Shown: positions 57,322-64,000 of the stretch, in pieces | Numbering within the stretch: position 1 is the stretch's first letter | Layout: every line of letters begins with the position of its first letter | Origin: Jiella pacifica | Lineage (GTDB): Bacteria; Pseudomonadota; Alphaproteobacteria; Rhizobiales; Rhizobiaceae | Length of the DNA stretch: 64,000 nt | Assembly (NCBI RefSeq): GCF_010500815.1 | Contig: NZ_JAAAMG010000003.1 | Location: 186,001-250,000, forward strand | Direction of reading: 5' to 3' | Made by a program: the position numbers and the translations under genes | Notes under the pieces: model-generated | Told to the model about the DNA's origin: nothing | Database searches by the model: none | The model's input: only the letters and a program-made list of their open reading frames with translations

Positions 57322-58695
57322 ATGGCGAGAAGCAGCAGCGAACGCTTCCTCAAGAGGCGTGGTGACAAGTACCAGTTTCGTCGTGAAATCCCTGTCGCGC
57401 TTCGCGACCATTTCGACGGCAAGACCGCAATTATCCAGCCGCTGCAAACGTCTGACACGAAGGTCGCCAAGAGGCGCCGCGACGAGTTTGTCAGAGAAAC
57501 GGATCGACTGTTCGAGGAAGCCCGCAACGGGCGGCTTTCGAAGCCGATGGGGCGTGTGGAAGAAATCGCCGATCGGTGGAAAGAGGAGATCGCAGCGTAC
57601 CAGAACGACCCGATCGCTTGGTCCGCCAAAGCGGGCGTAGTCGTCGATCGGGAAGAGGACGTACTTAGCCCGCACGATGTCATAGAGTACGAAATCGAGA
57701 GCATTGGCACTGAGCAAGGCGAAGTCGCGAAGGGGCGCTTTCTCGACCGCCTGCACAATCGCACCACAGTTGAAGAGCACGTCGAGACATATCTCTCAGA
57801 ACTCGACCTGAAGCCGAAGACCATCCAAGGGCGGCGGGCGGATATCTTGCTCTTTGCCGCATGGGCCACAAAGCGAGGATCGACGGTTCGGACGATCGAC
57901 AGGCGGGCCGCTGCGGATTTCTTCGCCGAGGTCCTGCTGCAGATGAACCGCAAGACCGCCGAGACGAAGTTCTCGAATATCAAAGCCTACTGGCGATGGT
58001 TGATCGAGCGAGACTTCTATCTCGAAGACAGCCCATGGGAGCGCCTTCGGTTCCCCTAGCGGCGAAATTCGAGCGCCGCGAAAGGCCCGGACGCCGAGCG
58101 GGAATTCACAGACGACCAAATCCGGCAACTCTTCAACCGGCTATCGAAAGCGGGCGGCAAAAACGCGTCTCGCCTTGGCGACGCCATGCGAGTTGCCGCA
58201 CTCTCAGGAATGCGGATCGAGGAAATCTGTCGGCTAACTGTAGAGGATTGCCGAGGCGGTAACTTCACGATCCGGGAGGGGAAGACTGCTGCCGCCTCTC
58301 GTACATTCCCAATTCACTCGGCGCTGGTCCCTCTCGTGGAGAGGCGTTGTGAAGGGAAGGCGGACGACGAGCGCCTGTTCTCGGACGTCAGGGGAAGGGG
58401 CGTCTCCCTCTCGGACCCCCTCAGCAAACAATTCGGACGCTTCATTCGGGCTGTTGGCGCCGCGGACATCCGGGAAGGGCATCGCCGGTCTAAGGTCAAT
58501 TTTCACTCCTTCCGGCGGCGGTTCGTCCAGAACGCAATCAGGGCAGAGATTCCCCAGCACGTCGTGTCATGGGTCGTTGGACATGCCGAGGGCCGGGACG
58601 GTATCACACTCGGCGTCTATAACCGGGGAGGGCCATCGGAGGCGCAAATGCGGTCTTGTGTCGAGGCCGTGCGGTTGCCGGAGGGGGTCGCTTAG
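57322..58695 (+). pseudogene. int: Phage-type tyrosine recombinase/integrase with an in-frame TAG
   Basis: The ATG at 57322 (GGAGAG ten bases upstream) opens a frame of 245 codons ending in TAG at 58057-58059, and the same frame continues without another stop to TGA at 58693-58695: 457 codons in all. The first part contains an Arg-rich arm-binding start (KRRGDKYQFRREIPVALRDHF) and the core-binding domain (TVEEHVETYLSELDLKPKTIQG). The second part starts EFTDDQIRQLFNRLSK and has the catalytic set: Arg in SGMRIEEIC, His-x2-Arg in HSFRRRFVQ, His in VGHAEG and Tyr in LGVYNRG. A single nonsense change inactivates it, unless the TAG is suppressed. Confidence 0.85.
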
Positions 58696-58725: not shown

Positions 58726-61632
58726 TCAGTCGCCCTTCTGTGCCGCCGCTCGCTCCTGATTGAGGGCGAAGAGGCGGGCGAGGACTTCGTCGTCGGAGAG
58801 ATCAGCGGGCCACCCGTAGGCAGCCGCAACGGCGGCGTCGAGCGCCTTGTGGGCATTGTCAAGCCATGCCGGCCGCTCGTTATAGAGGTTCGTCAGCGTC
58901 CGCTTCTTGAGGATCGCGGCGGCTTCCTCGTCCACTGGTAGGATGCGATCGGGGAAGCCGGGAACGACCTCGGGCTCGCGGCGGATGAGATCCGCGGGAT
59001 TGAGCCAACTCTCGCGAAGCTCATTCAGGCGAGCGGCAGCTTTCGCGATGGCGATGGAGCGGGGATCGTCGGCGTAGTCGGCAGCAAGGATGTCCGGGGT
59101 GAGCCCTTCGGGAAACGGAAAGGTCTCGAAGCCTTGAGAGGGCGTATATTGTGGATCGTTACCGACCCCATGCCATCCCCCCAAGCGCAGAGACCAAAGC
59201 TCGTGGAAACGAGAGTGCAGAATTCCGAACGCCGTATCGTCGTCGCGTGAGATCGCAACAAGGCGGCTATCTGGCAGCAAGCGCCCGGGTGCCCAGACGA
59301 AAATACGGTGCTTTGACACTCTCGGTGTTATAATAATTCGCGAAAGCGGAGCTGTGGCCTTCTTCAGATCGCTGCCTGAGCGACCAAGCCGCCACCAGTT
59401 TCGCCTCCGTTGCTCATCGCGGTTGGCTTCTCGGACAGGACGAACATGAATTCGAACGTGCTCGAAGGGCTTCTCATATAGAGAGGCGGCTTCAGCCGAC
59501 AGATCGCCAAAGTCGATGATCCACCTATGTGACGGCCTTCGAGCGATATCCATACCGTTTGCCCAAGGGCGAAGGACGTCAGAATTCGGCTTTCCGTGAG
59601 GGTTGTATCCTCCAAGCAGCCATTCACGCGCCTGCAGTTCCGAAACCTCGAACGATCCGACTTTGACCGGGCCTTGGAAGGCGGTCGCGGCGTTCGTCTT
59701 GATGCGCATGGCCTTCGTCAGATCGATGGCCGTACCGGTGAGATCAGCATTGATATGCTCAACCGGCAGACCGTTTAGATGCGGCGTCTCATCCTTCAGC
59801 CTTGACCCAAAGGCCACAAGCGAAACCCGAACCGCCGCCCCTTCGACCGTCCATGGTTCGTCAGCCCATGCAGATACGAAGCCAATGTGCTCCGCTATGC
59901 GGTCCATGACATGACGGTTTGCTCCGCCGCGTATGGAGTTGGTCGTGACCAGTCCGGCCCTCCTCGCTTGTCCCGAGGTTATTGCCTCTGCGGCCTTCGA
60001 CAGCCAATAGACTACTAGATCGCCTTCGGCAGGGACGCGGTCTCGATATAGCCTGAATAGCTGCTCGATGAGTTCGTCGCCAAGCTCCGAGCGCATGATC
60101 TTTCCGCCGAGAAACGGCGGGTTGCCTATGATGGCGTCTACCCTCGGCCAATCGGCTTCAACAGCACCCCCTCCCGCAATGGATATTAGCGCGTCCCGAC
60201 ATTCGATGGTCTCCAGAGGTTTCAGGATGGGATTAGCTGAGGCGGCGAACCCATTCCGAAGCATCCACTGGATTTCACCGATCCAGACAGACACCCGCGC
60301 CAGTTCGGCCGCATAGGGGTTGATCTCGATTCCCTTGACGACCTCCGGCCCAATCTGCGGGAATCGGCGGGGCAGGCCAAGGGCCTCGGCTTCCACCTGC
60401 GCCCGGTGCTCCAGGTCCTTCAGGGCACGAAGAGCGAGATAGAGGAAATTGCCGGAGCCGCAGGCGGGATCGAGAACGCGGTAATCGGCGAGCCGCTGGA
60501 GATATTTATCAAGTATGGCCTGAGCATCATTTTTTGATTTTGTAGCCTGAGCTTGCATAATGCTGCCCGCCCGCCCTCGAACGCGCTCGGAATTGCCTTG
60601 GAGCAAATTGGCCCGCGAAAGGAGTCTTGCAATATTTCCCTTCGCCGCCTCCCATTCAGCCGTCAGCGGCTCCACGATAACCGGATTGATGATCATCATG
60701 ATCTTGTCGCGGTCGGTATAGTGCGCCCCGAGTTGGCTGCGCTTGTCCGGGTCGAGACCACGTTCAAAGAGAGTGCCGAGGATCGAGGGATCGATGTCGC
60801 CCCAATACTGGACGGCAGCCCGATGGACGATTCCCAGCTCTTCCTTCGTCAGCGCGAACACAAGGTCGTCGTCAAACAGGCCGCCGTTGAACCATGCGAC
60901 TTTTTCGAAATCGATCCGACCACCGCTCTTCATCGCGACGAACAGTTTGCGAGCGAAGTCCTCGAACTGTTCAGGCTCCTCGAGGGCTCGCTCGATCATC
61001 TTGGTGAAGATGCCGTTGGGCAGAAGCTTCACGTCCTCGGCGAACATGCAGAAGACGAGGCGATTGATGAAATGCGCTACCTCTTCGGGCTTGTGGCCGC
61101 GCGAGCGCAGCGACTTCGCCAGCTCGGCGAACTCCCCCGCGACCTCTTCAGTCAGCTCCTGCCGGGTCTTCTTGGGGCGGAGGAGGTCGGGCTCACTGAA
61201 GGCCCATTTCAGCCACTGGCGTTTCTCGGCGTCCTCCAGATCGACGATTGGAATGACGTACTTCTTGGAGACCGAGTTGGTCCAATTGGTGTGAATGCGG
61301 ATCGTCGTGCCGATGTCGGAGACGATGAGGAGGGGCGGATTGTCGAGGGCGACGGCGTACCGCTGGAGCTGCGCAAAGGCGGCGTCGAGGTTTGAATGGG
61401 TGCCTTTGTATTCCCAGCCGAAATGATCGCGCTTGAAGACATCGGCGAACCCCCGGCCGCCAGTGGTCTTCGTGGCGCCAACCTCGAAGCCGTAGTCCTC
61501 CCCCGACGGATCGACCTCGGCCGGTGTCGGTTCATTCAAAAGGCGGCAGAGATCGAGAAAATGCTCCTGCGCCGCCGCTCGCTCCTTCAGCTTGGAGTTG
61601 GACCACTTCTTGATGAACTCGTGCGGCGTCAT
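58726..61632 (-). CDS. Type IIG/IIL (MmeI-like) fused restriction endonuclease-DNA methyltransferase
   Basis: 968 residues from the ATG at 61632 (MTPHEFIKKWSNSKLKERAA); upstream open codons are not conserved. An N-terminal nuclease domain has D64 ... E74-Y-K76 in GFADVFKRDHFGWEYKG, a PD-(D/E)xK arrangement. A helical spacer follows (about 170-370). The gamma-class adenine methyltransferase has motif I DPACGSGNF (388-396) and motif IV NPPF (504-507). The C-terminal 350 residues are the presumed target-recognition part. Such enzymes cut and methylate from a single chain and need no separate modification gene. Some DISARM DrmMI proteins look similar, but no other DISARM gene is present. The gene ends 30 bases from the integrase stop. 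Confidence 0.85.
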   Translation of the reverse strand: MTPHEFIKKWSNSKLKERAAAQEHFLDLCRLLNEPTPAEVDPSGEDYGFEVGATKTTGGRGFADVFKRDHFGWEYKGTHSNLDAAFAQLQRYAVALDNPPLLIVSDIGTTIRIHTNWTNSVSKKYVIPIVDLEDAEKRQWLKWAFSEPDLLRPKKTRQELTEEVAGEFAELAKSLRSRGHKPEEVAHFINRLVFCMFAEDVKLLPNGIFTKMIERALEEPEQFEDFARKLFVAMKSGGRIDFEKVAWFNGGLFDDDLVFALTKEELGIVHRAAVQYWGDIDPSILGTLFERGLDPDKRSQLGAHYTDRDKIMMIINPVIVEPLTAEWEAAKGNIARLLSRANLLQGNSERVRGRAGSIMQAQATKSKNDAQAILDKYLQRLADYRVLDPACGSGNFLYLALRALKDLEHRAQVEAEALGLPRRFPQIGPEVVKGIEINPYAAELARVSVWIGEIQWMLRNGFAASANPILKPLETIECRDALISIAGGGAVEADWPRVDAIIGNPPFLGGKIMRSELGDELIEQLFRLYRDRVPAEGDLVVYWLSKAAEAITSGQARRAGLVTTNSIRGGANRHVMDRIAEHIGFVSAWADEPWTVEGAAVRVSLVAFGSRLKDETPHLNGLPVEHINADLTGTAIDLTKAMRIKTNAATAFQGPVKVGSFEVSELQAREWLLGGYNPHGKPNSDVLRPWANGMDIARRPSHRWIIDFGDLSAEAASLYEKPFEHVRIHVRPVREANRDEQRRRNWWRLGRSGSDLKKATAPLSRIIITPRVSKHRIFVWAPGRLLPDSRLVAISRDDDTAFGILHSRFHELWSLRLGGWHGVGNDPQYTPSQGFETFPFPEGLTPDILAADYADDPRSIAIAKAAARLNELRESWLNPADLIRREPEVVPGFPDRILPVDEEAAAILKKRTLTNLYNERPAWLDNAHKALDAAVAAAYGWPADLSDDEVLARLFALNQERAAAQKGD

Positions 61633-61844
61633 AGGCGGGAGCGCTTCTCTGCATGATACTCCCAATAATGGACGCAGAAAGAAAAGCGATTTGGCAAGCG
61701 CTAATTCGCGCCACCGTTGAGCTGGACTCAATCGCCGCAGGCTTGAGTGGTCGACCGCCGAGACCTTGTCCCGGCGGCCTTGGCACCGCCAAACGGCTGC
61801 GCCGTCAAGCAGATGCATCGACGCCATCGTCTAACGGCTAGCCG

Positions 61845-61937
61845 TCAGCAGCAGCGCCAGTGACCGCACACGTACTCCAGTCGTCCAAAGCGGACGCGGC
61901 AGTACGGGGCAACCCAGTGGCAACACCGAGTAACCAT
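61845..61937 (-). CDS. 30-residue Cys/His-rich mini-protein
   Basis: A 31-codon frame with a near-ideal Shine-Dalgarno AAAGGAGG five bases before its ATG. The peptide has six Cys (5, 6, 13, 24, 29, 30), two His (7, 26) and two Trp (8, 27), arranged almost symmetrically: CCHW near the start and CGHWRCC at the end, joined by an Arg/aromatic centre (YCRVRFGRLEYV). This spacing could bind zinc or form disulfides. No family is recognised with certainty. It lies upstream of the restriction-modification gene on the same strand, 212 bases away. Confidence 0.45.
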   Translation of the reverse strand: MVTRCCHWVAPYCRVRFGRLEYVCGHWRCC

Positions 61938-61942
61938 GCGTG

Positions 61943-61958
61943 CCTCCTTTAAAGGAGG
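61943..61958. promoter_or_regulatory. Perfect 16-bp palindrome that contains the mini-ORF Shine-Dalgarno
   Basis: CCTCCTTTAAAGGAGG reads the same on both strands. In the leftward mRNA its second half is the ribosome site of the mini-ORF and its first half is the complementary CCTCC, so a 6-bp hairpin with a UUAA loop could mask the site. It could also be a dimeric repressor operator. Confidence 0.5.
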
Positions 61959-62233
61959 ACTCTTGAACCAATAAGAGACTTGCGCTAAAATTACGCGGAA
62001 CGGGAAGCGCAGTTTCCCTTCTCCCCGCTGACTGAGTCTCAAAATCCTCAGCGGGACCGGAATCGGCTCCCTTAGGTGCGGCAAACACCTCTGGGGGCCG
62101 TTCTATTTCCGGCGGCTCAATATTTCCGTAGCCGATTCCTTTCGTTCATTCAAGTGCGCCTGAATGGACCGTGACACCTTCCCCAGAAACTTGTAATGAA
62201 CAGCATGGATCGGAACAACGGGGGAACTTCCGA

Positions 62234-62806
62234 ATGTCGGACGCTGCTGTTGAGAATGCTCGTCGCCAGCGAGAAGAGCTCGCCCAACGTGTCAACGAAA
62301 CCCAGCAAAAACTGGACGACTGGCGACGCAGGATAGACCGAATTGACCGGTTTCTGGCGGATTGGGAGGTGTTCGCCGCAGGCTCGTCTCCAAGCGAGAT
62401 GGGAGACACTGTGGGCGCCGTGGCATCTGCGAACAATGAGCGGACGAAACAAGCGCGACGGAACTCTTCAAAGGAGGACGTCGCCAAAATGTCTCGTGCC
62501 GTCATCGAAGATGAAGGGCGCCCCGTGCCCCGGAATGAGCTTCACGATGCTCTCACCAAAGCCGGTCTTCGAGTCGAGGGAGCCGACCCGGAGGGTGTCC
62601 TGAATACGATGCTGTGGCGCACACGCGAGGAACACGGCGTCATTCATCTGCGAAATGTCGGATACTGGTTGCGCGAAAGGGAGTGGCCTGAAGCTTCATA
62701 CTATCCGGAACATGACGGTCTTTTGGGTGCTGAGGATGACGCTCCCGAGGCTTCCCACGGTTCAGATAGTTCAGAGGAGCAGACCTGTACTTCGATCAAA
62801 GAGTGA
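62234..62806 (+). CDS. Coiled-coil / winged-helix protein of the accessory region
   Basis: 190 residues from the ATG at 62234 (GGGGGAAC upstream); in-frame ATG codons up to 62171 are less likely. Residues 1-50 form an amphipathic coiled coil (ENARRQREELAQRVNETQQKL, DDWRRRIDRIDRFLADWEVF). Residues about 95-160 look like a small winged helix: RPVPRNELHDALTKAGLRVE, GVLNTMLWRTREEHGVIHLR, VGYWLRE. The tail is Glu/Ser-rich. No enzyme motif is seen, so a DNA-binding or protein-protein adaptor role is likely. Similar HTH proteins occur in phages and defence islands. Its 3' end overlaps the convergent BRO gene by 106 bases. Confidence 0.6.
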   Translation: MSDAAVENARRQREELAQRVNETQQKLDDWRRRIDRIDRFLADWEVFAAGSSPSEMGDTVGAVASANNERTKQARRNSSKEDVAKMSRAVIEDEGRPVPRNELHDALTKAGLRVEGADPEGVLNTMLWRTREEHGVIHLRNVGYWLREREWPEASYYPEHDGLLGAEDDAPEASHGSDSSEEQTCTSIKE

Positions 62807-63198
62807 AATTCATTCGGAATGAATAAGATGGCGGTCGTTTTCCGTCCGTCCTTGCGGATCGCCGGTAGGACCTCCTTCGTCACCCAATCCTGGAAGGCTT
62901 TCGCCTCCGGCTTGTCGGAGCGCATGACGAGCTTGTAGAGGCCGCTTTCGGAGATGAGGGAGTAGTGGCTGGACCTCCGACCGACCCCCTCGAACAGATC
63001 GCGGGGGTCCTCCCCTCGCCGGACGACAAATTTCTCGTCGGACCCGATGGCCTTGAGGTATCTGGCGGAACCGTCATTGCCGATCTTGAAGCCGAGAGAC
63101 CGGCAAACATCAGCCGCGACGAACCACGGTTCGCCGTCCCGGTCGATGACCCGCAGACCGTTGCCGTTGAAGTCGAAGGGGGAGAGATTGGTCTTCAT
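62701..63198 (-). CDS. BRO-N domain protein (phage antirepressor-like)
   Basis: 165 residues from the ATG at 63198, with AGGGGAAC eight bases upstream. Residues 5-115 match the BRO N-terminal DNA-binding domain: FDFNGNGLRVIDRDGEPWFVAADVCRSLGF, YSLISESGLYKLVMRSDKPEAKAFQDWVTKEVLPAIRKDG. The rest (TTAILFIPNEFHSL onward) is not a recognised antirepressor domain and runs antisense through the end of the winged-helix gene, so the C-terminus may be truncated or fused. BRO proteins are a marker of phages and prophages. Confidence 0.85.
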   Translation of the reverse strand: MKTNLSPFDFNGNGLRVIDRDGEPWFVAADVCRSLGFKIGNDGSARYLKAIGSDEKFVVRRGEDPRDLFEGVGRRSSHYSLISESGLYKLVMRSDKPEAKAFQDWVTKEVLPAIRKDGRKTTAILFIPNEFHSLIEVQVCSSELSEPWEASGASSSAPKRPSCSG

Positions 63199-63209
63199 GT
63201 AGGTTCCCC

Positions 63210-63422
63210 TTACTGGTTGACGAACGGGATCGTGCCGCCGGGCACCATGGTCGTCGGAAGCTGTCCGTTCCAACGCTCGGCGCGGATCAGCTCGACCACC
63301 TGCGGGTTGTCCCGGAGGGCCTTGCCGCGGGCGTCGATCACTGCCGCCTCGGCGTCACCCTTGAGCCGGGTTGCCTCGGCCGCAGCCTGCGCTTCGGCAC
63401 GGACGCTGTCCGCCTTCGCCTG
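63210..63422 (-). pseudogene. C-terminal remnant of an SPFH/band-7 (prohibitin-like) protein
   Basis: Seventy codons read QAKADSVRAEAQAAAEATRL, then GDAEAAVIDARGKAL and NPQVVELIRAERWNGQLPTT, and end in MVPGGTIPFVNQ and a TAA stop. That is the typical closing helix and WNG-x-LP tail of phage and bacterial SPFH proteins. Upstream of about 63425 the pattern ends abruptly in unrelated codons, and no start or SPFH domain is present. It is a truncated gene left by a deletion or insertion. It lies 12 bases upstream of the BRO start on the same strand. Confidence 0.65.
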
Positions 63423-63519
63423 CGTAAACCCACCACGTAGCGCACAGGCGAAAGTTGTGCTTGTATATCGTTCTCGGGCGACTCAAGCACAAGCTTGACA
63501 TGATGACAGCCTAAGAGCG

Positions 63520-63771
63520 ATGTCTGGAGTTGAGATGCGTTATATTTTGCATGGACCACTAGGGGTTTTGTTTCTTTTTGCTGGACCAATCACATACATA
63601 ATAGGTGTCATCGACACATGGCAAGGTAACGCGTCTGTACTCGTCAAGATATTGATAGCTTTATCGATAGACGCGTTCCTTGCAATGATTTGGCCAGTCA
63701 CATGGACGTTGTGGATGATTATGTATTTCCTTGGAAAGGATAGCCCGATTTCAACAGTGTTGGGACTTTAA
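63520..63771 (+). CDS. Small membrane protein of unknown function
   Basis: 83 residues (or 78 from the ATG at 63535). Two to three hydrophobic segments: GPLGVLFLFAGPITYIIGVI, VLVKILIALSIDAFLAMIW and TWTLWMIMYFLG. The gene and its flanks (about 63430-63780) are far more AT-rich than the rest of the window, a sign of foreign origin. It interrupts the place where the rest of the SPFH gene would be expected. No homologue is recognised. Confidence 0.55.
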   Translation: MSGVEMRYILHGPLGVLFLFAGPITYIIGVIDTWQGNASVLVKILIALSIDAFLAMIWPVTWTLWMIMYFLGKDSPISTVLGL

Positions 63772-63944
63772 GAAGTTTGCAGAGCGCTTCAAAAATACCA
63801 GAAAAATTCGAGGCGCCCCCCTCGACGACGAGAATGCAAAAGTCCCCCCCCCGGTCCCCCCTCTCGCAAGCCAGACGCGGCCTGGCGCGGATGCCGTGCC
63901 GGCTTAGAACGGCTCCTCTCACCGGCAACATCTTGGGTACTCGG

Positions 63945-64000
63945 ATGACGTACGACCGCGAAGCGATGCGACAGGCCGAAGAGGCGGCAGCCAGGCGCTT
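63945..64000 (+). CDS. Start of a possible gene cut by the window edge
   Basis: An ATG at 63945 opens a frame MTYDREAMRQAEEAAARR to the edge. It is helical and charged, but too short to identify, and no good ribosome site is seen. Confidence 0.25.
   Translation, partial: MTYDREAMRQAEEAAARR

Follow-up and report, generated by a model that had tools for sequence, protein, structure and literature searches.

A micro-protein family of phages, plasmids and IS1595-family transposons with inverted repeats at the translation start in one clade, read from a 30-codon gene of Jiella pacifica

The stretch of Jiella pacifica DNA analyzed here, 64,000 nucleotides in length and referred to below as the window, carries on its minus strand at 61845-61937 a 30-codon micro-protein gene, which ORF reading and a profile match placed in PHROG 21154 and in a subclade that we call CH..RCC. 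The encoded peptide, MVTRCCHWVAPYCRVRFGRLEYVCGHWRCC, has six Cys in 30 residues. Its AGGAGG ribosome-binding site (61943-61948, minus strand) lies 5 nt 5' of the ATG and forms the 3' arm of a perfect 16-bp palindrome, CCTCCTTTAAAGGAGG (61943-61958, minus strand), confirming the earlier note, which had placed the ribosome site inside such a palindrome. Read as RNA, the palindrome gives a stem of 6 bp closed by a TTAA loop, in which the Shine-Dalgarno (SD) sequence is paired. Directly upstream of the hairpin is TTCAA (61963-61967, minus strand), the CAA of which is invariant at this place in 21 aligned leaders. A divergent non-coding region of 296 nt (61938-62233) separates the peptide gene from a winged-helix-like regulator gene of 190 aa (62234-62806, plus strand), and the other neighbor of the peptide is a Type IIG (MmeI-like) restriction-modification gene. 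The end of the regulator gene is overlapped by the C-terminal part of a Bro-N antirepressor gene (62701-63273) in which Pfam found the Bro-N domain only, as if it were truncated at the edge of the module. A tyrosine integrase gene was also observed that appears to be divided between two frames, 57322-58059 and 58186-58695; it is likely the broken integrase of the island.

Taken alone, the peptide and the palindrome are modest features, and it is comparison with relatives that lifts them above chance. When every start codon is counted, the window has 906 ORFs of 20-45 aa, and two of these contain at least six Cys. The palindrome by itself is unremarkable, since the window holds four perfect palindromes of at least 16 bp and about two are expected from base composition, and within one mismatch it is a single copy in the 5.77-Mb genome. 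Rfam gave nothing in 61000-63200 of the window at E<=1, nor in ten loci at gathering thresholds, and a terminator scan of 61640-62260 found none. A promoter scan gave one site (0.2 expected), TTGAAC-17-TAAAAT at 61963-61991 on the plus strand, which points at the regulator gene and shares bases with the TTCAA stretch in the leader of the peptide. TAGAATCGCA was considered as a -10 box and rejected, since in several leaders it turned out to form the 3' strand of the repeat that lies upstream. A convergent ORF (61653-61841, plus strand) was likewise considered as a partner of the peptide and treated as spurious, its best tblastn match elsewhere in the peptide loci having an E of 0.14 and Pfam giving none.

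The PHROG 21154 profile matched the window peptide with E=2.2e-5 (residues 9-29 on profile positions 23-43 of 47). Of four relatives it matched three at 1e-9 to 6e-7, the fourth, the broken L005, reaching E 0.16. AMBK_50 of Salmonella phage Oslo, whose gene is likened to a VT2-Sakai protein in the phage record, is a profile match too. PHROG 21154 is a phage protein family labelled as of unknown function. Tblastn of the peptide against phages, which the earlier note had suggested, found relatives on phages and plasmids; the matches were weak and several were whole tiny ORFs with one core, while L007 and L008 were judged to be chance matches outside the family. Pfam and NCBIfam gave no family for the window peptide, a Pfam search of four relatives gave a single meaningless match (E 0.17), a PDB sequence search gave no match at E<=1, and PADLOC-DB gave no match for the window peptide.

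Related peptides were found in 17 of 199 genomes of the GTDB family of the window (8.5%; PHROG profile, E<=0.01), in 30 of 397 genomes of the order (7.6%; 20-member profile, E<=0.01, the weakest probably chance) and in 14 of 398 genomes of the phylum (3.5%; 40-member profile, E<=0.001), percentages that rest on different E thresholds. No close relative was found in the nine other genomes of the genus that were searched, and one of them (G004) has a distant one. Relatives include peptides of Bosea lupini, Methylocystis, Pleomorphomonas, Rhodoblastus, Brucella, Novacetimonas and Methylovulum. With a single Xanthomonas query, 148 of 72,556 plasmid records gave a match at E<=10, the identity being 60% or higher in 106 of these, and 58 of the 60 plasmid matches listed have no annotated gene at the site in the gene table used, which is incomplete. 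Among 5,426 E. coli genomes, 232 contain DNA that is 80-90% identical to the phage Oslo copy, and the Sakai copy lies between cI and N of prophage Sp5, where no gene is annotated. The family spans plasmids, lambdoid prophages and IS1595-family transposons and is mostly unannotated. PHROGs comprise phage proteins; to these the present analysis adds members on transposons and plasmids, as well as the CH..RCC subclade, the regulator and the leader. Some plasmid copies (L116, L117, L118 and L121) lie near defence-like genes, namely DUF3800 with a kinase, an AAA ATPase with an integrase and hsdR, multiubiquitin/ThiF, and another AAA ATPase. In one genome of the order (L052) the micro-protein core lies inside larger ORFs, in two open frames; a 269-aa protein there has the same domain toward its C-terminus (PHROG 21154, E=3e-4).

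For the comparisons that follow, 70 members were curated by hand and sorted into the clade of the window peptide (group A, 36 members), a CxWP group (W, 17), a tail group (Q, 11) and six others; group A includes a near-duplicate pair, L081 and L082. Left out of the 70 were near-identical Brucella copies, second copies per genome, second matches without a locus, the two chance matches, L010 (a copy of L006), L009 (start broken), L044, L050, L051 and L053-L057 (weak or unread), and the large protein of L052; L116-L123 and L127-L136 were later finds or were not added. The three groups were drawn by peptide type after some leaders had been read by eye, and start codons were picked by SD spacing, both of which could favour group A.

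Several lines of evidence identified the Cys-rich ORF as a real mini-gene, as the earlier note had proposed. In 13 non-overlapping pairs of members, 72, 44 and 182 differences fell at codon positions 1, 2 and 3, so that 182 of 298 were at the third. Eight residues (Y, R, R, G, E, V, H and R) do not vary among 20 sequences, which come from a phage and from both alpha- and gammaproteobacteria. They form the core of the family, Y-x-R-x-R-x-G-x-x-E-x-V-x-x-H-x-R, which the window peptide fits in its strict form and which fits 69 of the 70 curated members when Y/H, G/N and H/Y are allowed. The third-position excess and the conserved core ruled out a spurious ORF. Frames are kept across divergent copies, so that the loss of frame in relatives raised in the earlier note as a reason for doubt did not tell against the gene; among the frames that were read two looked broken, L005 at its end and L009 at its start. 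We regard both the family identity and the coding status as well supported.

The symmetric Cys/His layout described in the earlier note is present in the window peptide and is not general in the family. In the subclade of the window peptide C-H stands close to the start and R-C-C at the end, a layout that fits 15 of the 70 members in a looser pattern. Cys is absent from 12 of the 70, and the MVW subfamily (25-27 residues) begins after the position of the first CH, directly at the core. Since other subclades start at the core or have no Cys, the layout is a trait of the subclade, and a zinc site would at most be a feature of the CH..RCC peptides and not of the family, with metal binding putative. 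The suggestion of a zinc-binding peptide therefore stands at most for that subclade.

A related reading makes the peptide a zinc-binding control peptide of the Type IIG restriction gene. In its favour are the adjacency of the two genes in the window and the invariance of CH and RCC (CC) in an initial alignment of eight CH..RCC members, themselves selected for this layout. A further member of the subclade, L058, has RH and RSC instead, and the Cys-less members count against this reading as well. When the restriction gene was searched against the peptide loci by tblastn, the only match outside the window's own copies was a partial one (L119). In Bosea lupini (L079) the regulator and the peptide are kept together between mutL-like and rsmD-like ORFs (the names are our reading), where neither a restriction gene nor, as in the window, a transposase was found. 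We consider a control peptide of the restriction module, one of the roles put forward in the earlier note, next to untenable.

By contrast, the winged-helix-like neighbor proved to be a true partner of the peptide. Tblastn found homologues of the regulator divergent upstream of the peptide in 16 of the 70 members, the window included, and in the 8 of these 16 in which the match reaches the start of the gene the distance between the two is 277-321 nt. When ORFs were called mechanically and clustered by single linkage, the divergent gene was of family 1 in 18 and of family 2 in 14 of the 70 members; a regulator of one or the other family is divergent upstream in 29 of the 36 members of the clade of the window peptide. 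The winged-helix label comes, for family 1, from weak HARE-HTH matches (E 0.0065 and 0.087) below the Pfam cut-off and, for family 2, from one PADLOC CARF-associated match (E 7e-5) together with our own reading. Other PADLOC-DB matches of the regulators were weak (LmuB, E 0.0012-0.012; JetD, 0.02). With these qualifications, the peptide gene lies between a restriction-modification gene and a winged-helix gene just as had been described.

Many peptide loci were matched in tblastn by the IS1595 transposase (PF12762, DDE_Tnp_IS1595). Such a transposase lies in the flank of roughly 1-3 kb in 25 of the 70 curated members, comprising 18 of 36 in the clade of the window peptide, 7 of 17 in the CxWP group, and none of the 11 in the tail group or of the six others. 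It is convergent with the peptide in 16 of the 25 and on the same strand, upstream or downstream, in nine; the convergent match ends 228-354 nt from the peptide start in 14 members and further away in two that are partial (L005 and L100). PF12762 gave 47 matches in 19 of 27 peptide-bearing genomes, which were our choice among 45, and 13 of the 27 have a match no further than about 1 kb from the peptide, compared with well under one expected by chance.

Eleven elements of 2,159-3,457 bp are enclosed by terminal inverted repeats of 24-30 bp that contain both the peptide and the transposase, and in ten of them (all but L110) there is also a regulator of family 1 or 2. The first type of repeat is GGGACCTATATACGTGyktGACCC, and some elements carry a second type. 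Exact 8-bp target duplications flank six of the 11 (L086, L089, L060, L090, L018 and L091), and we regard these six as bona fide transposons with the peptide inside; the complete L090 element is 2,249 bp. The 8-bp flanks are one base off in L093 and L042 and show no match or are unreadable in L082, L100 and L110; L042 and L100 have one weak end with 7 mismatches in 24. Among nine further members checked for the first repeat type, one end was found in L105, L096 and L081 and neither end in L017, L019, L005, L049, L058 and L080.

No IS1595 transposase was found by tblastn near the window peptide, and the two IS1595 (PF12762) matches of its own genome lie on other contigs, with no recognisable peptide in the stretches examined. 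The first type of terminal repeat is absent from the window at three or fewer mismatches, the best site in 59000-64000 having 9 mismatches in 24; the second type was not found at the window locus when about 1.5 kb around the peptide was scanned for exact 11-base matches. A transposon home is demonstrated for relatives and inferred for the window, where the module would be the surviving cargo of an IS1595 transposon, peptide and regulator, minus the transposase and the ends. Family identity together with the link of the window's clade to IS1595 transposons is, in our judgement, very probable. In 45 of the 70 members the flank of roughly 1-3 kb has no IS1595 transposase, so the peptide can hardly serve transposition alone.

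IS1595-family transposons with extra genes have been described, and PMC5704250 presents MTnSag1 and tISCpe8 as examples. These resemble the elements studied here in their DDE_Tnp_IS1595 transposase, inverted repeats (25 bp there, 24-30 bp here) and 8-bp duplications, but their cargo serves resistance or mobilisation, whereas here it is a micro-protein and a winged-helix-like gene with inverted repeats over the start. In the literature on IS1595 passenger genes and insertion-sequence micropeptides (including PMC7371123 and PMC5704250) the module is undescribed as far as titles and the beginnings of abstracts go, subscription papers lying mostly outside this coverage.

A small gene with a hidden ribosome site on mobile elements also brings to mind a toxin-like addiction factor of the transposon, silenced by the leader and the regulator, and the persistence of the module where the flank has no transposase (the window and L079) would fit such a role. 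The peptide is not hydrophobic as type I toxins typically are, however, nor did the window peptide match anything in PADLOC-DB, Pfam or NCBIfam; we regard a toxin as unlikely.

The clade of the window peptide differs from two sister groups in the base pairing of its leaders. RNAalifold on a MAFFT alignment of 21 leaders found no structure, a result that we put down to stems and loops of differing length, and an arm-swap test was used instead. Over the 36 leaders the pairing of each arm with its own partner was -10.86, compared with -8.38 for swapped partners, and none of 20,000 permutations was as low. This was also none for the 15 CH..RCC members alone, and the result was unchanged without L005, L082 and L093. 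In the sister groups 5% (CxWP) and 87% (tail group) of permutations were as low. A control within the gene and shifts of 15, 30 or 60 nt showed nothing, the signals at 75 and 90 nt were weak (686 and 239 of 20,000) and are unexplained, and a shift of 45 nt gave a second strong signal (0 of 20,000).

We take the signal at 45 nt as a second repeat because a repeat is located there. It pairs -90..-71 with -50..-31 (z -10.5), along with neighbouring windows over about -100..-30, and 27 of the 36 leaders rank their own partner among the top three. In the leader of the window peptide itself, own pairing at this repeat was not better than swapped (-17.2 vs -17.3). The CxWP group has a weaker repeat at a similar place (z -4.1). 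A third, weaker covarying pairing in the group A leaders, of -130..-111 with -100..-81 (z -5.1), would compete with the second repeat and is possibly an alternative fold.

Folding of the leaders gave a similar picture at the ribosome site. SD pairing in the 36 leaders of the clade exceeded that of dinucleotide shuffles (mean 0.77 vs 0.65), with 11 of the 36 at p<0.05 and a Fisher value of 1.4e-6. In the sister groups p<0.05 was reached by 1 of 15 CxWP leaders (two more lacking an SD) and none of 10 tail-group leaders (one lacking an SD), and in the mixed rest by 2 of 5 (one more lacking an SD). The leader of the window peptide alone was not above its shuffles (p=0.49). The SD stems comprise 35 distinct arm pairs in 36 leaders, with 213 Watson-Crick and 29 G-U pairs, and in 27 of the 36 they cover at least 3 of the 5 SD bases. 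The earlier suggestion that the palindrome folds the SD against its own complement therefore stands as a covarying feature of the clade, and it is for the window leader taken alone that it did not exceed shuffles. What the clade conserves at the ribosome site is the inverted repeat as such, be it as an RNA hairpin or as a DNA repeat; a hairpin is well supported for the clade and moderately for the window.

Action at the level of RNA is less than demonstrated, because sense and antisense leader folds are equally stable and there is no excess of G-U over A-C. The same two observations fit a different reading, of a kind that the earlier note had also raised, in which the divergent winged-helix-like protein would use the inverted repeats as DNA operators. 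Every element would then keep a dyad that suits its own diverging regulator, and the ribosome site would merely overlap a half-site. The presence of the divergent regulator about 300 nt away in many relatives and the spacerless palindrome of the window would also agree with operators. However, loops of 3-26 nt in the best Watson-Crick stems at the ribosome site (stems chosen mechanically) and an almost complete lack of shared arm pairs would be unusual for an operator, and we hold this reading to be possible but not probable. SD-sequestering leaders precede the transposase genes of IS10, IS50 and IS200, where a hairpin likewise lies over the ribosome site of an element gene; the difference is that here the gene is a passenger micro-gene.

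AlphaFold2, given 40 family sequences, predicted a four-strand sheet for the peptide (residues 6-9, 12-16, 19-23 and 26-29) with confidence (mean pLDDT 90, pTM 0.39). In a Foldseek search of the PDB the arm region of IHF beta had the highest probability shown (0.66, E 3.4) and CutA came first by E, none being significant. VIA-align also placed IHF first (Z 2.3-2.4; rmsd 1.4 over 30 residues, IHF beta residues 48-79). The strand order and length of the model thus resemble this part of IHF beta in a match that is not significant, but no sequence relation of the peptide to IHF/HU is apparent and its model is without helices. In a viral fold library, H0092 of phage VT2-Sa was the top match (probability 0.97, E 0.5), followed by phage proteins of 261-263 aa and by some HU-like proteins, none of them significant by E.

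In 19 of the 70 members the peptide ends in a Q-L-x-[L/F]-x-[F/L] tail, including QLTLFS and QLSLPL, and L108 is modelled with its tail, predicted at low confidence, outside the folded core. According to PMC4549789, QLxLF at transposase C-termini is a beta-binding motif. These tails could make the peptide a tether to the replication fork through the beta sliding clamp, with tail-less members having lost or outsourced the tethering. Most of the tails have F where the consensus has L, and the window peptide has no tail and no beta-clamp-like QLxLF motif at its C-terminus; clamp binding is putative, and as a general account of the family we find it improbable. By eye, a short inverted repeat was seen just after the stop codon in L011, L012, L031, L037, L041, L062, L076, L077 and L108, of the tail group; the swap test applied to this downstream region gave a weak result, with a best z of -2.5 among 44 windows.

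With slightly better than even confidence, we favour the view that the window gene encodes a cargo micro-protein of an IS1595 transposon, a basic beta-sheet whose translation is gated and which acts on nucleic acid or on the regulator for the element. The repeat would act in the mRNA, hiding the SD so that little peptide is made, and synthesis would rise when the structure opens or the regulator alters transcription. The peptide would fold as a small basic beta-sheet, bind nucleic acid or the regulator, and serve the element, probably by acting on that element's expression or transposition. A peptide of this length can be made by synthesis, which makes a direct test of its function possible.

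The family is too small for routine annotation, and most copies are unannotated where annotation is visible. It links transposons, prophages and plasmids, and in it the base pairing of the start region is kept while the letters change. A wider proposal, which we consider decidedly unlikely, is that a beta-sheet protein of 25-45 residues, a covarying silencing leader and a divergent regulator together form a clamp-coupled accessory of IS1595 elements, prophages and plasmids, in which tail-less peptides such as that of the window would be the nucleic-acid-binding half. If this were true, the accessory system would couple the element to the replication fork of its host through the clamp-binding tails.
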